Assembly: GCF_000577275.2 (NCBI RefSeq)
Contig: NZ_HG916855.1
Location: 1,612,001 to 1,676,000 of the forward strand
Direction of reading: 5' to 3'
DNA from: Rhizobium favelukesii
GTDB lineage: Bacteria > Pseudomonadota > Alphaproteobacteria > Rhizobiales > Rhizobiaceae
DNA: 64,000 nucleotides
Position numbers and translations under genes: made by a program. The first letter of the stretch is position 1, and each line of letters opens with the position of its first letter. A model generated the notes under the pieces. It had not been told where the DNA came from, ran no database searches, and was given only the letters and a program-made list of their open reading frames with translations. Shown one piece after another: positions 15,141-38,159 of this stretch.

Positions 15141-15238
15141 TAACGTGGCTCCGCGGTCCGACTTTCGTCACACTACGTTCACCTTTAGTTCAGCCGGAGA
15201 GGATAATACTTCCTCCATTGGAGACGAGGAGAACAGTC

Positions 15239-31472: not shown

Positions 31473-31615
31473 TGCCTCGCGGGCCTGTCACCCTAAGCTC
31501 TCTTGAGACCGGGGCTTAATCGACACACCTCATCGGGATGAAGCGCGAGTCCCCGTTTTTCGTATTGACGGTCTCTCGGATTGCCGGAACACTTTTAGTC
31601 AGAAGTGGAGATAAA

Positions 31616-32188
31616 ATGGCAAACGAAGATCGGGTCAAGCTGCTGAAAGAGCTGCTGGATCGACAGGACATCAAGGGAATTCAGTTGCTTATCGCCGACG
31701 GATGCCCGGTGGCCGAGCTGAGGGCGGCAACTGCCGATTTCGTGTGGAGGTTTGTGCTGACTAATTCCGGGCGCGGCGTGTCGATCGCCAACGTAGACGA
31801 GCTTTTGACCGAGTGGACGCAGGCGCTCAGCGGCCTCAAAACTGCAGCCGCACGCCTACGTGTGCAGGACATGGACGATCCTAGCCGCGCTGCGGAGTTT
31901 GAGCAGGTAAGGGTGCGCACTGCCGTCGCCCGCATCGCGGAAAATACCCAGTTGGCCGGCATTAGGATCAATCGGCATTTGCGCGCTGGCGAACTGTCTC
32001 CGCCACTCGAAACAGCTATCGACGACTGCCTCAGGGAGCAGGGTTTCCAATGGAACGGTGGTGATACAGTCCATGAAATCTGGTCCGAGGAGCACGAAGC
32101 TCGTCTTCGCGCCGCCCAAGCGGAACACAAAGCAAGAAAGCAGATGGCTGTAATCTCCGAGGGAGGCGTCGATGCACCAGTCCTTTGA
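31616..32188 (+). CDS. Unknown protein, paralogue of the next gene (1)
   Basis: A 190-residue protein of unrecognised family. Acid/base-rich and helical, without signal or membrane segment. It shares a layout with the product of 32172: a start rich in DRQDIKGIQLLIADGCPVAE, a WRFVL core, a helical middle (AEFEQVRVRTAVARIAEN) and QGFQWNGGD near the end. GGAG precedes the ATG at 31616, preferred over an earlier frame start at 31538. The stop overlaps the next start by 17 bases, so translation is coupled. Cytoplasmic; function unknown. Confidence 0.65.
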   Translation: MANEDRVKLLKELLDRQDIKGIQLLIADGCPVAELRAATADFVWRFVLTNSGRGVSIANVDELLTEWTQALSGLKTAAARLRVQDMDDPSRAAEFEQVRVRTAVARIAENTQLAGIRINRHLRAGELSPPLETAIDDCLREQGFQWNGGDTVHEIWSEEHEARLRAAQAEHKARKQMAVISEGGVDAPVL

Positions 32189-32729
32189 TCTGTCTCGGGT
32201 CGCCGCTTTCCGCGTTCAAGCGCGTCGTGATGACGACGAAGCTTTTGCGGAAGCCGCAAATCGCCATCTCAGTGAAGGCTTGCCAGTAGCGGAGATCCAA
32301 CAGGCCATCGAGTGCACGGACTGGAGATATGTGCTCGAGAACTGCGGTGACCAAATCGAGCTTTCGCGCCTATCCGATCTCAAGGCCTGGTATTTCCAGT
32401 TGGTCGACCAGATCGACGAGAACCTTCAGAGTATCCTCCAGGTTAGCGAAGTCCAAGGCAGCCCTAAGGCGATGCTTCGGCTTCTGGAGGCGCGAGAGGA
32501 ACTCGGCCGTTATTGCCACGAAGCCTATATCGATGGACTTCGTGTCCAGCGATTTCTTCTGCCGGAGGACGAACCGCCAGCGCCTGACCTGGATATTCAA
32601 CGGGTTCTCGCACGCGCGGGACTGACGTGGGATGGCGGTTTCGAAGTCGAAGCTGCTCCTGGCGAAAACGCGAAGCTGTTTACGGACGCTTGTGCGCTGA
32701 TGGGCGTGCGAAACGTTTCGTATTCTTAG
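32172..32729 (+). CDS. Unknown protein, paralogue of the previous gene (2)
   Basis: A 185-residue protein related to the product of 31616: NRHLSEGLPVAEIQQAIECT aligns with its LIADGCPVAE stretch, TDWRYVLENCGDQIELSRLS with WRFVLTNSGRGVSIANVD, and RAGLTWDGG with QGFQWNGG. It also lacks a signal peptide. The pair probably arose by duplication and may form a complex. It ends three bases before the reverse-strand operon at 32733-35824, so the two units converge. Not recognised as any known family. Confidence 0.65.
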   Translation: MHQSFDLSRVAAFRVQARRDDDEAFAEAANRHLSEGLPVAEIQQAIECTDWRYVLENCGDQIELSRLSDLKAWYFQLVDQIDENLQSILQVSEVQGSPKAMLRLLEAREELGRYCHEAYIDGLRVQRFLLPEDEPPAPDLDIQRVLARAGLTWDGGFEVEAAPGENAKLFTDACALMGVRNVSYS

Positions 32730-32732
32730 CGG

Positions 32733-32945
32733 TTATGCGACTTTTGCAGCGAAGGATTGTGCGAGCGCGGCGGCTTCCAGGGCAGCCCCCAAGCGAGCCG
32801 ACGTCTTGTATGGATAGTGCTTCCAACACCACCAGTCGTCGCGTTCTCCCTTGACAAAACCGAAGCCAGCCCAGTCCCCGCAATGGCATTTCCGGCCGAC
32901 GAGTGTGGGAGCACGCTGCAGTGTCGGCCGATCGATGTCGTTCAT
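32733..32945 (-). CDS. Small Cys/Trp-rich probable zinc protein
   Basis: A 70-residue protein with KCHCGDWAGFGFVKGERDDW followed by WCWKHYPYK. The CxC and CWxH residues form a compact metal-binding set, resembling small zinc-knuckle proteins. AAGGAGG lies 4 bases before the ATG at 32945, and the ATG overlaps the stop of the upstream gene (ATGA). It is the last gene of the SOS-box operon. Function unknown. Confidence 0.6.
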   Translation of the reverse strand: MNDIDRPTLQRAPTLVGRKCHCGDWAGFGFVKGERDDWWCWKHYPYKTSARLGAALEAAALAQSFAAKVA

Positions 32946-33234
32946 AATACCTCCTTGAGGACCCAACCCGTCTTGGGTCTTTTCCACCCGCGTTTGGCGG
33001 CTCTAAGATCAGCCTCGGCTGTCGCTTTCCGTTTCGCTTCCAGCAGACCATCTGCCCAAACCGTTATGCGGAAACGACCGACGGCGAAGATGTATCGGTC
33101 GGTGTCCGCTCTGCGCCCCGAAGCATAGCCCGCTCGGAAGAGCTTCTTTGCGAGGCTGATGTTGACCCTGTTCTCGAAGTTCGGTCCCTGAGCCTGCCAC
33201 CATTTACGAAAGGCGGTCTCGAAATTCGGCTTTG
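32942..33234 (-). pseudogene. 5'-truncated unknown gene cut off by the IS1634 element
   Basis: The reverse frame is open from the element edge and reads KPNFETAFRKWWQAQGPNFE, RVNISLAKKLFRAGYASGRR, ADTDRYIFAVGRFRITVWAD and so on to GWVLKEVL, an apparently real coding sequence. No ATG, GTG or TTG is in frame on this side of the element. The stop overlaps the next ATG (ATGA). The 5' part is missing, as if the transposon had broken the gene. The family is not recognised. Confidence 0.6.
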
Positions 33235-33240
33235 CTGTCC

Positions 33241-35256
33241 GGCTAGCCCATCTTTCACGGTTCGCGAAAAAAAGTGAATGAAATCAATTGTCGCCCCCTG
33301 AAAGTCTCCACTACAGAGGCGGGGCTGGGTGGCGGGCTGGGAGCGTTGCAGTCGTAATGCGTGGCGGCGGCTGAGGCGGCAATTCGAGTTTGAGCTGCCT
33401 CAGCAAGAGCTTCTGGTCGGCATTGGGTTCGGTGTAGCGGGTGAGCACCAGTGTTCGGCGGTCTGTTGTCGGAAAATGCACGTCGAGCATCTGAATGGCG
33501 GCCATCTTATCGAGCACGGCACGCGGCGTGAGACCGGGCGCGAGTGGCTTCAGGCGGGCTCGTAGCGTGACCTGCAGGCAATATGCCATGAAAGCCACGA
33601 AGATGTGCGCCTCGATACGAGGCTCGTGCTGATGATAGATCGGCCGCAATTGCAGATCGTCCTTGAGGTTTTTGAAGGCGGCTTCAATCTCGGTGAGTTG
33701 GATATAAAACTGCCACAGATCGGCGGGATCGCGGCCATTGAGATTGGTGCGCAGCAAATAGCGTCCTTCGCGCCGGCGCACAGCGCGCAGCTTGTTGCGG
33801 TTGAGCTTGAATGTGAACACCGTGCCGCTGTCGGGAATATCAATATCAAGCAGCCGCCATGCCGCAGGCGCCTTTGAACGCGCGGCTCCGAGCTTCATCA
33901 ACAGCTCCTTGCGCGTCAGCGTCATGCCGGCAATTTGCGTCAGGCGCGTCCACAGCCATCGCAGTTTACGCTGTCGCATGGCGCGTTCTTTGTGGATGCG
34001 TGCATGGCTCTGGGCAAAGACATAGGTCTCTTGCTCTTGCGGCAGGAGCTTGACGTCGACGCCCTGGCGCACGCTCTTCCAGGGCTTATCGAGCAACGCT
34101 TTCTCCAGCTTGGAGAGCCGTCCCTTGGGCGTGCCGACCAGATAATAGACCGGCGGATCGGCCTGGCGCATCTCGGCCAGGACTTCCTCGGTGGGAATGC
34201 CGCGATCCATCACCCAGATGCGTTCGGCCTTGCCATATTGCGCTTCGATCTTCTGCAAGAAGCTGCGCAATGTCGTGCTATCGGCTGTGTTGCCGGGGAG
34301 CACTTCATAAGCAAGCGGAAAGCCGTCCGGCGTAACCACAAGTGCGATGACGACCTGAACACAATCGCTGCGCTTGTCGCGGCTATAGCCATAGCGGCGC
34401 TTATCGGTCTCCTCCTCCGGCGGAGGTGATTCAAAGTAGGTGCTGGTCAGATCATAGAGCAACACGTCAAATCGCGCGCCAAACAGATCCTGCCAGCGTT
34501 GCCGCAAGTGAGAAAACAGGTCTTGCTTGTGAGGCAGGATCTTGTCCAGGCAACCATAGAGACCGTTCTTCGCTGCCAGCGCAAAATCCGCCCCCAACAG
34601 ATCGGCCATGGCGCTCTCTTCGAACCATTGCCGATGCAGCCGCCACTCACTGCCCGGATCGATCAGGCGATAACACACCAGCGTTTGCAGGATCTTCTGC
34701 CAGTCTCTTCCCTTCCGGGAGGCGGGCAGACGAGGCGACCAGAACGCATCGAGCTGCAACTCCTCATAGAGATGACTTGCCAGCCAACAAGCGCCCCATT
34801 GCCGCGGCCGATGCAACTGCATCGCATCGAGCCGCACTTGCACGCCATAGCCTGCCGCGCCTTGTGGAAGCGTCTTGTCGGCGGGAAATAACGAAAGCTG
34901 TCTGTAACGCTGGGTATCCTCATCAAAAGCTTCGATCGCGCGGCTCCAGTCAGCGAGTTGACCGTCATTGATCTCGCCAAGATAAAGCACCTGTCGCTGC
35001 ACCACCTTGCCGCCGGCACATCGCCGGTTCTCGACGATGTTCCAGTAGCGGTGTTGCTTGCCGTCTTTGAAGCGTCGATTCTCGCGCAAAAACATGATGC
35101 GCGTGATTCTATCTGCGTCGCCGTAACGCGGAAAGATAGTAGGTCTACACTACACGCCGATCGCGCAAACCGGCCATTGATTCGATTCGGCTTTTTGCCC
35201 TTGCAACACCCGAAAATCGGCCAAATCGGCCGCGAATCGTGAAAGATGGGCTAGTC
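33241..35256 (-). mobile_element. Complete IS1634-family insertion sequence
   Basis: The element is 2016 bp long. Its ends are inverted repeats: GGCTAGCCCATCTTTCACGG at 33241 and, on the other strand at the right end, GACTAGCCCATCTTTCACGA, identical apart from two bases over these 20, continuing with TTCGCG in both. CTGTCC flanks it at 33235-33240 and 35257-35262 as a perfect 6-bp target duplication, which indicates a recent, clean insertion. It carries one transposase gene. Confidence 0.85.
33311..35095 (-). CDS. IS1634-family DDE transposase
   Basis: A 594-residue transposase with an IS4/IS1634-type catalytic core: VLLYDLTSTYFESPPPEEET (first D, about 214), ERIWVMDRGIPTEEVLAEM (second D, about 302), and YIQLTEIEAAFKNLKDDLQL (E, about 475, inside the YREK-like region). 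The frame is intact from ATG to stop and lies wholly within the element bounded by inverted repeats. Codon use does not differ strikingly. The element is probably able to transpose. Confidence 0.9.
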   Translation of the reverse strand: MFLRENRRFKDGKQHRYWNIVENRRCAGGKVVQRQVLYLGEINDGQLADWSRAIEAFDEDTQRYRQLSLFPADKTLPQGAAGYGVQVRLDAMQLHRPRQWGACWLASHLYEELQLDAFWSPRLPASRKGRDWQKILQTLVCYRLIDPGSEWRLHRQWFEESAMADLLGADFALAAKNGLYGCLDKILPHKQDLFSHLRQRWQDLFGARFDVLLYDLTSTYFESPPPEEETDKRRYGYSRDKRSDCVQVVIALVVTPDGFPLAYEVLPGNTADSTTLRSFLQKIEAQYGKAERIWVMDRGIPTEEVLAEMRQADPPVYYLVGTPKGRLSKLEKALLDKPWKSVRQGVDVKLLPQEQETYVFAQSHARIHKERAMRQRKLRWLWTRLTQIAGMTLTRKELLMKLGAARSKAPAAWRLLDIDIPDSGTVFTFKLNRNKLRAVRRREGRYLLRTNLNGRDPADLWQFYIQLTEIEAAFKNLKDDLQLRPIYHQHEPRIEAHIFVAFMAYCLQVTLRARLKPLAPGLTPRAVLDKMAAIQMLDVHFPTTDRRTLVLTRYTEPNADQKLLLRQLKLELPPQPPPRITTATLPARHPAPPL

Positions 35257-35472
35257 CTGTCCAGCACGTTCAACCTCCCGATCAAACGTGGGCGTCCATC
35301 CCCGCGTCATTCCGTGGCTCATTGCTGCCTCGGCCAATGCCAGTTGCATGCGCAAATGCTTGATGTCACCGAGCAGTGTCGCGATGGTCGCCTTGGCATC
35401 TTCGTCGTGGAAGGCGAGGGCGGCTTCAACCTCAAAGGCGACATCCATTTGCTTTGCGGGCTTAATCGACAT
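35251..35472 (-). CDS. Small unknown protein, paralogue of the 37962 gene
   Basis: A 73-residue protein (MSIKPAKQMDVAFEVEAALA, then HDEDAKATIATLLGDIKHLR and MSHGMTRGWTPTFDR). It shares its structure with the product of 37962-38159, in which AxxATLxxDxKHLRxQL and a C-terminal LTRGWVPS are the same. Helical and soluble. The present stop codon (TAG) comes from the insertion-sequence end, so the C-terminus may be altered by the insertion. It starts inside the end of the upstream gene. Function unknown. Confidence 0.6.
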   Translation of the reverse strand: MSIKPAKQMDVAFEVEAALAFHDEDAKATIATLLGDIKHLRMQLALAEAAMSHGMTRGWTPTFDREVERAGQD

Positions 35473-35824
35473 GGCCCGCTTCTCGAACGACGTCATAGAA
35501 GGCCTGCACGACGTCGCTCGCGTCTCCGGCGCATTGGAACCAGACCGGTTTGCGCATCACGATGCTGGAACCGACGGCATTGAAGTAGCCACAGGCTCTT
35601 TTTGTGGCGGGGTCGACCGCAATGTCGAAATAGCCGAGCGGCCCCCCGGAAGCCATGTCGTAGACGTTGGCCGAATAGAGGCTCCAGCCCTGGTAGTTGG
35701 GCATCATGATCATGGTTGCCATCAGGAGCGGATGGATTTCGGCCATCGTAGCTTCTGTGGGTGGTGTCCAGTAAGTGCCCGTGATGTCTTCCCCACGCAG
35801 TTGTTCGATCGGCATGTGTGGCAT
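35462..35824 (-). CDS. Unknown protein, first gene of the SOS-box operon
   Basis: A 120-residue protein starting MPHMPIEQLRGEDITGTYWT, with no signal peptide and a mixed alpha/beta composition. The PPTEATMAEIHPLLMATMIM stretch and ACGYFNAVGSSIVMRKPVWF are notable. No family recognised. GAGGAGG lies 9 bases upstream of the ATG at 35824. The start is 30 bases downstream of a GAAC-N7-GAAC SOS box (35854-35868), and the next gene starts inside its 3' end. The order suggests LexA control. Confidence 0.6.
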   Translation of the reverse strand: MPHMPIEQLRGEDITGTYWTPPTEATMAEIHPLLMATMIMMPNYQGWSLYSANVYDMASGGPLGYFDIAVDPATKRACGYFNAVGSSIVMRKPVWFQCAGDASDVVQAFYDVVREAGHVD

Positions 35825-35853
35825 GGCCGTCGTCCTCCTCAAAAGTTTTGGAT

Positions 35854-35868
35854 GTTCCTATTATGTTC
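35854..35868 (-). promoter_or_regulatory. LexA (SOS) box of the alphaproteobacterial type
   Basis: GTTCCTATTATGTTC (GTTC-N7-GTTC) is the consensus LexA-binding sequence known from Rhizobiales. It lies 30 bases upstream of the 35824 start, reading GAAC-N7-GAAC towards the operon. LexA control is inferred from the perfect match and its position. Confidence 0.7.
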
Positions 35869-35989
35869 TCTTTTGTGGCCGAGTCAACATTCGGATATGA
35901 CGAGACAAGGAAAACTCATGCGAGGGCCAGCTCAACGAGGACGATCGCTCGGAGTTCCTCCGGAGGCGATTTGTCCTTGCGCTTGGTGA

Positions 35990-36137
35990 TTACTCTTGAG
36001 CATGTGCCCGCGACACTAGATCACCAGACTCATAGAGCGTGAAAATGTTCTTATGCTCGATTGTGCCGTCGCTTGTTTCGATCTTGATATTCGAAATCCC
36101 CTCGGGCCGCACACGGAGCCACATCCGGTAGTCAGTT
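35990..36137 (-). pseudogene. C-terminal part of an unknown gene truncated by IS630
   Basis: About 49 codons on the reverse strand (TDYRMWLRVRPEGISNIKIE, then EHKNIFTLYESGDLVSRAHA) remain. The 5' end is cut where the IS630 element begins; the start is not found on the far side of that element. It is likely a former regulator or structural protein, not recognised. Confidence 0.5.
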
Positions 36138-37301
36138 ATACCAGCGAGCGCAGAGTGCGACTCACTTGGGATTCCCGAATCGGTGAAAATCTGAATCCAT
36201 GGGGCAAACGGGAGGTTTGCAATGGGTTCGGCGATTGCATTGCGCGATGATTTTGATGGTCCTGCTCTGCGGCAGTTCGCGAAAGGGACCAAGGATGCCG
36301 CTCAAGCGCGGCGGCTTCTGGCGTTGGCGGAAATTTATGACGGCGGCTCGCGTACAGATGCGGCCCGGATCGGGGGCGTGACCTTGCAGATTGTTCGCGA
36401 CTGGGTCGTTCGTTTCAATGAGCACGGGTCGGCCGGGCTCCTCAACGGCAAGGCTCCCGGCAATCGGCCCAAGCTGAATGATGATCAGCGCCAGGCCTTG
36501 GCCAAGATTGTAGAGCGTGGTCCGATCCCGGCTATCCACGGTGTCGTTCGGTGGCGGCGCAAGGATCTGGTCCAATGGATCTTCCAGGAATTCCGGATCT
36601 CGATGGACGAGACCACGGTTGGTCGCGAATTGAAGGCTCTCGGCTTTGCCAAGCTGTCTGCCCGGCCGCGCCACTACGCCCAGAATGAACCCGAAGTGGA
36701 CGCTTTTAAAAAGAGTTCCCTGCCGCATTGGCAGCCATCAGAAGCAGCCTCCCGAAGAATACCGAGATCGAACTCTGGTGGGCCGACGAGGCGCGCATAG
36801 GTCAGAAAAACAAGATCACCCGCCGATGGGCTCGCCGTGGCACCCGACCTTCAGCGCCGCTGGATCAACGGACGATGTGGGCGTACATCTTCGGTGCCAT
36901 CTGCCCCAAGAAAGGTAAGGGCGCGGGCCTCGTATTGCCCTATTGCGATACCGACGCCATGAATCAACATCTGCTGGAAATCAGCCAGGCAGTCGATGAC
37001 GGCGCTCACGCGGTCCTCATCCTCGATCAAGCCGGATGGCACGTCACGCCGAAGCTCAGCGTCCCTGACAACATCACATTGCTGTTCTTGCCGCCGCGTT
37101 CGCCTGAATTGAACCCTGTCGAAAACGTCTGGCAGTTTATGAGGGACAACTGGCTGTCGAACCGCATCTTCACAGACTACGAGGACATCGTCGCTCACTG
37201 CTGTGCCGCCTGGAACAAACTCGTCGCGCAACCCTGGAAGATAATGTCCATTGGACTGCGCGAGTGGGCGCATCGGTTTTGATCAATGCATGTTGGTATT
37301 A
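36138..37301 (+). mobile_element. IS630-family element (approximate ends)
   Basis: The left end (ATACCAGCGAGC after a TA at 36137) and the right end (TGTTGGTATTA ending near 37301) are imperfect inverted repeats (ATACCA-R-C on both). TA target use fits IS630. The boundaries are approximate within a few bases. One transposase gene lies within. Confidence 0.6.
36222..37282 (+). CDS. IS630 transposase read in two frames
   Basis: The first frame (36222-36716, GGGAGG upstream of ATG) gives the helix-turn-helix half: RRLLALAEIYDGGSRTDAAR, QIVRDWVVRFNEHGSAGLLN and KALGFAKLSARPRHYAQNEP. The second frame continues FPAALAAIRSSLPKNTEIEL, WWADEARIGQKNKITRRWAR, LILDQAGWHVTPKLSVPDNI and FLPPRSPELNPVENVWQFMR, which carries the DDE residues (D in the WADE motif, D in LILDQAG, E in NPVENVW). 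The join is a -1 shift at TTTTAAAAAG (36704-36713). Such slippery runs are used for programmed -1 frameshifting in IS families, so the element may be active; a mutation is the alternative. Confidence 0.8.
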
Positions 37302-37387
37302 GTCGCTGGGTGACGGATCTGTAAATGCCTATCGCCTCGCCGTGGCCTGCTTAGATGACCTCGGCGTGATCCAACGTCTTGGGGATT

Positions 37388-37961: not shown

Positions 37962-38159
37962 ATGACAGCCGCCGAGAAAAGGCTAGACCTTCAGTACGAT
38001 GCCGTTGAACAAGCGATTGCTTGGCACTCGGGTGACATGAGGGCAGCCATTGCCACGCTGATCGACGACTGCAAGCACCTTAGAGATCAGCTCGACACCG
38101 CACAGAAATGCATGAGCAAAGGCCTGACACGAGGTTGGGTTCCAAGTCCGGAGCGCTAG
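37962..38159 (+). CDS. Small unknown protein, paralogue of 35251-35472
   Basis: A 65-residue protein (MTAAEKRLDLQYDAVEQAIA, then AAIATLIDDCKHLRDQLDTA and LTRGWVPSPER). It aligns with the product of 35251-35472 along its whole length, with DCKHLRDQL and TRGWVPS matching. Predicted helical. GAGGG precedes the ATG at 37962. The paralogous copies are separated by an IS630 element and lie on opposite strands. Function unknown. Confidence 0.6.
   Translation: MTAAEKRLDLQYDAVEQAIAWHSGDMRAAIATLIDDCKHLRDQLDTAQKCMSKGLTRGWVPSPER

Follow-up and report, generated by a model that had tools for sequence, protein, structure and literature searches.

A putative SOS operon of four small genes in Rhizobium favelukesii, a likely member of a modular family shared with other Rhizobiales and temperate phages

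A reverse-strand chain of four small genes, here named g1 to g4, lies behind a LexA-type box in a 64-kb window of the Rhizobium favelukesii genome (the whole stretch analyzed, positions 1,612,001 to 1,676,000 of contig NZ_HG916855.1, which accounts for 1.93 Mb of a 7.57-Mb genome). Here it is proposed, with a probability of roughly 0.6 on the strength of sequence comparison, that this operon belongs to a modular family of operons repressed by LexA and present in Rhizobium, in the wider Rhizobiales and in their temperate phages, whose products would serve damage tolerance at the replication fork. Putative control of the operon by LexA is well supported by the conservation of its box. In many related bacteria and their phages, relatives of g2 stand behind the same kind of apparent damage switch, as would be expected if a part of the DNA-damage response had so far escaped description. 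Many SOS genes are without known function, and a small protein found almost always behind the LexA box, in hosts and phages alike, could help to show which of these genes work together and for what reason they are carried by phages.

The box (GAACATAATAGGAAC; GTTCCTATTATGTTC when read on the plus strand) is 29 bases from the ATG of g1 at 35824, and is the perfect GTTC-N7-GTTC repeat that the original prediction had placed just upstream of this gene. A TTGACT hexamer precedes the CATAAT contained in the box by 16 bp, so that a plausible promoter would have its -10 element within the box; a GTTC/GAAC-N7 direct repeat at a promoter is what an alphaproteobacterial LexA regulon calls for. Within the window, GTTCN7GTTC was observed four times against 2.59 expected, with at least four in 28 of 100 shuffles. 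Taken by itself, the box in the window was rejected as a signal, since this count is within chance, and the case therefore rests on comparison with relatives. Another copy of the pattern, at 15177-15191, is found about 26 bp before an open reading frame (ORF) at 15218 and may be a chance occurrence.

Matches to g1 were found in 45 of 200 relatives, confined to one of 68 genera. Among the 45 g1 loci that were fetched (including the window copy and its paralogue, with weaker matches left out), a box lies no more than 300 bp upstream in 44, against one of 45 in the downstream control. The g2 family was found in 90 of 115 Rhizobium genomes, and the matches listed comprise 150 places from 76 of those 90 genomes. 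The exact 16-base box lies within 2 kb at 71 of these places (within 559 bp at 70 and at 1,537 bp at one), and the 700 bp upstream of the other 79 contain GAACN7GAAC at 40 of 40 and 27 of 39, with downstream controls of 1 of 40 and 2 of 39, giving 138 of the 150 listed places with a box. As in a LexA regulon, the box is conserved together with g1 and g2. The 12 listed places without a box have QLD instead of QLA in nine cases and QLE in two, one being unreadable. The window itself contains one of the nine, a second g2-family gene on the plus strand, whose relative in another genome (G029) is also near a g1 operon and also boxless.

Outside the genus, a g2 profile built from Rhizobium and phage sequences had matches in 27 of the 347 genomes searched within the order, and a wider profile had them in 64 of 347, in 16 of 134 genera. 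The 44 places sampled from the listed wider-profile matches comprise 42 in seven other families, with a box within 300 bp upstream in 30 (19 of 22 and 11 of 20; downstream control 0 of 42), and two in another genus of the same family, both with a box. Random 300-bp windows from non-Rhizobium loci had a box in 249 of 2600 cases, genuine boxes included. An earlier count, with a box at 13 of 21 places, overlaps the sampled places and was left out of these totals; its loci supplied nine of the 14 rows in profile A7, two of the nine being boxless (L187 and L192). The original prediction had been made to depend on relatives sharing both the gene order and the box. Both recur, the box in the counts given for g1 and g2 and the order g1-g2-g3-g4 in another genome (L073) and in the paralogous locus (L077).

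By its sequence, the operon box is of the LexA type of this genome. With up to three mismatches, AGAACATAATAGGAACA was found at 10 places in the genome against four for the reversed pattern. Two of the 10 are the operon copies, one precedes another g2-family operon (L039), and one precedes a 319-residue ImuA-like protein (NCBIfam ImuA at 41 bits, below the cut-off of 150), which is followed by a frame with a Pfam IMS domain over the cut-off, as expected for ImuB. The lexA gene (PF01726 over the cut-off) is also present, with GAACACATATGGAAC upstream. A near-box with one mismatch to the 17-mer was observed before the gene for an 84-residue Arc-type DNA-binding protein (Pfam Arc over the cut-off; L037, G000:C59:1921003).

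In the genus, GAACATARTARGAACA has 144 occurrences in 77 of 115 Rhizobium genomes, and its reversed control has none. Loci L071, L272 and L274 were excluded for being too close to a contig end. At 69 of the GAACATARTARGAACA sites the neighborhood was read, and 54 have, no farther than 1.5 kb away, at least one gene from the set of g1 to g4, SRAP, imuA and three other zinc-type families, as scored with models some of which were seeded from those same loci. These include SRAP at 14 sites and imuA at four, while only other modelled genes were found at four sites and none at 11. Promoter spacing is also recurrent, with TTGAC at 16 bp in 48 of 68 distinct upstream regions, and eight lacking TTGAC. 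As judged from gene content, the operons are modular, combining g1 to g3 and small zinc-type proteins, sometimes with SRAP. A sister LexA-box operon (L102-L140 and L342-L380; L344 in this genome, G000:C61 near 460,000) has a first gene of 55-59 residues, whose product ends in QLxLxL in all 48 cases found among 79 loci; this ending is taken here as a sliding-clamp-type motif.

The same genes are carried by phages. Sinorhizobium phage phi2LM21 and Agrobacterium phage Rivra both carry g2, and in each the operon behind the box encodes g2, SRAP and zinc-type proteins, g4-like ones among them. Viral contigs contain 48 loci with g2, and all 46 that were testable have a box within 500 bp upstream, against none of 46 in the control; among these 46 loci, SRAP is also present in 21, g4 in 32 and g3 in 13. 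A search with g4 gave 33 loci on viral contigs. Judging by the contig names, many of the g2 contigs are presumably prophages of sequenced strains. These loci give weight to a different reading, in which the operon consists of phage-derived genes timed by the SOS response, that is, small phage proteins under host LexA that aid prophage induction or lytic growth in an antirepressor-like way, left by old prophages in chromosomes and plasmids. The g2-g3-g4 order in three viral loci (L261, L285 and L294) fits such an origin. However, no phage gene was recognized by eye in the ORF list of the 64-kb window, a search of viral contigs restricted to the patterns of g1 gave no match, and the sister operon has its clamp-type first gene in 48 of the 79 loci read. 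This origin is considered rather unlikely.

Under the proposed family of damage-tolerance operons, LexA would block the promoter; upon DNA damage, RecA would be activated, LexA would be cleaved and the operon would be switched on. Less surely, the products would be small adaptor or DNA-binding proteins that aid the tolerance or processing of damaged DNA near the replication fork, and they would act together with SRAP, which presumably has a role at abasic sites, and with the clamp-motif protein of the sister operon. A broader version, held only tentatively, is that g2 marks a branch of the SOS response that is undescribed and spans the order, and whose interchangeable parts (g1, g2, g3, zinc-type proteins, SRAP and the clamp-motif peptide) might form a fork damage-tolerance complex traded between hosts and phages.

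Division inhibitors are common among SOS products, and small SOS-type proteins without known function could include one of the SulA or SidA kind, acting as a checkpoint. Such a role seems improbable for these genes, whose partners are SRAP and zinc-type proteins; visual inspection of the products, without a prediction run, shows no evident membrane segment. The original prediction saw in the operon an undescribed stress or defense module. The SOS-box operon of small genes without known function that it described is supported by the sequence, with a box association far stronger than one window could give. The defense reading, whether as damage-induced anti-phage defense or as a toxin-antitoxin module, is recommended by operons that are accessory, multi-copy and variable, but g1 to g4 have no PADLOC match, the same genes are carried by phages, the partners are SRAP and zinc-type proteins, and imuA stands behind the same box elsewhere; a defense function is thus very unlikely. 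A chance origin of the box, with genes outside SOS control, would be allowed by the excess of only four over 2.59 in the window, but is hardly credible and largely refuted at the sequence level, the box being conserved across homologues with controls near zero.

The features of the operon in the window are given in Table 1. The overlapping four-gene chain described in the original prediction agrees with the coordinates, g1 and g2 overlapping by 11 bp, the GTG of g3 lying inside the end of g2, and g3 and g4 sharing an ATGA. Between the two copies in this genome, g1 has 17 synonymous and six nonsynonymous codon differences of 121, and this synonymous excess supports its being coding; the corresponding values for g2 (1/1), the g3 piece (0/3) and g4 (1/5) are too few to judge. 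The product of the last gene had been said to look zinc-binding, and its zinc-type Cys and His residues are kept across 12 aligned relatives, metal binding itself being only predicted.

Table 1. Features of the putative SOS operon and the associated insertion in the window
Feature	Position	Strand	Remarks
LexA-type box	35854-35868	-	Covers -10-like CATAAT (35860-35865); conserved in relatives
-35-like TTGACT	35882-35887	-	Separated by 16 bp from the -10-like CATAAT of the box
g1	35462-35824	-	120 residues; predicted sheet and C-terminal helix
g2	35251-35472	-	73 residues; family marking these operons; stop codon kept despite the insertion
g3, 5' end cut by the insertion	35255-35267	-	GTG start (35265-35267) inferred from the uninterrupted copy
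g3, rest, headless (no start)	32942-33244	-	From sequence and paralogue comparison
g4	32733-32945	-	70 residues from ATG; conserved C20, C22, C40 and H43
IS1634 element	~33247-35248	-	Transposase 33311-35095; ends uncertain by up to 2 bp
Target duplication CTAGCC, copy beside g2	35249-35254		Possibly only CTAG
Target duplication CTAGCC, copy beside the rest of g3	33241-33246		From sequence and empty-site comparison
Second g2-family gene (matched stretch)	37995-38156	+	QLD subfamily without box

The products fall outside recognized families, as had been stated, with no model in four libraries reaching its curated cut-off for g1 to g4, and no family for them in PADLOC (at E 0.1) or PHROGs. Matches of g2 to CHASE8 (E 0.099) and of g4 to a deiminase model (E 0.052) were sub-threshold and were rejected. 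The predicted structure of g1 is good (predicted local distance difference test, pLDDT, of 91.9), but no solved structure matches it by sequence, Foldseek searches of the PDB and of viral libraries were empty at E 0.001, and a second structure comparison gave only a middling Z. A ThermoDBP-type single-strand DNA binder was considered for g1, as a candidate fold only. For g3, the predicted structure is poor (pLDDT 70.9; predicted template-modelling score 0.42) and the fold search had no match at E 0.001. Among the papers listed by topical literature searches, with most subscription journals outside their scope, none dealt with these families.

The same contig carries a second copy of the block (L077), 93-98% identical, in which g1 to g4 are all uninterrupted. 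Each block has an IS630 element of 1,168 bp, 100% identical but at different sites (36136-37303 in the window and L003:7602-8769); one of the two window frames reaches 150 bits to NCBIfam IS630, over the cut-off of 100, and the element in the second copy disrupts a neighboring gene. Two overlapping plus-strand genes (31538-32188 and 32172-32729) face the operon and are duplicated with it, neither having a Pfam or NCBIfam match.

The IS1634 element splits the chain, as originally predicted, a few codons after the GTG of g3, with its transposase at 294 bits to NCBIfam IS1634 (cut-off 100). Inverted ends and a short target duplication also agree with that family, from which nothing notable differs other than the ambiguous length of the duplication. 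The predicted 6-bp CTAGCC fits the empty sites of the paralogue and of Rhizobium sp. T1473, but a duplication of 4 bp (CTAG), with CCCATC symmetrically at the ends, fits as well, and the length is therefore given as 4 to 6 bp. This is the only IS1634 copy reported in the genome. The insertion had also been called fresh; the site is empty in the paralogue and at the orthologous position in strain T1473, but Rhizobium sp. T136 has the same element at the same site. The g1 gene is 100% identical in strains T136, T1470 and T1473. The insertion breaks g3 and probably lowers g4, a loss for which the uninterrupted copy elsewhere on this contig probably makes up.

GTTC-N7-GTTC is given as the LexA box of Alphaproteobacteria in PMC3323433. 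The operon shares this box type with imuA and lexA of the same genome; it differs in that the genes behind the box are without name or model, and in that the 16-base box in Rhizobium is far more uniform than the loose motif demands. Among the 'extra' genes of phage phi2LM21 (PMC5537653), p58 was named SRAP and is in the operon that holds the g2 homologue p63, whereas the terms p63 and LexA are absent from the main text of that paper. The neighborhoods of SRAP (YedK/HMCES) described by Aravind et al. (2013, PMC3765255) contain zinc-ribbon proteins, Ku and ligase, and section 6 of that paper names none of g1, g2 and g3, nor any LexA box upstream of them. The window operon also differs in being without SRAP, which was found at 14 of 69 related sites. 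The regulon type, and zinc proteins beside SRAP since 2013, are already known; in agreement with those neighborhoods, SRAP and small zinc-type proteins share related operons here, and an annotated ATP-dependent ligase adjoins the operon of phi2LM21.
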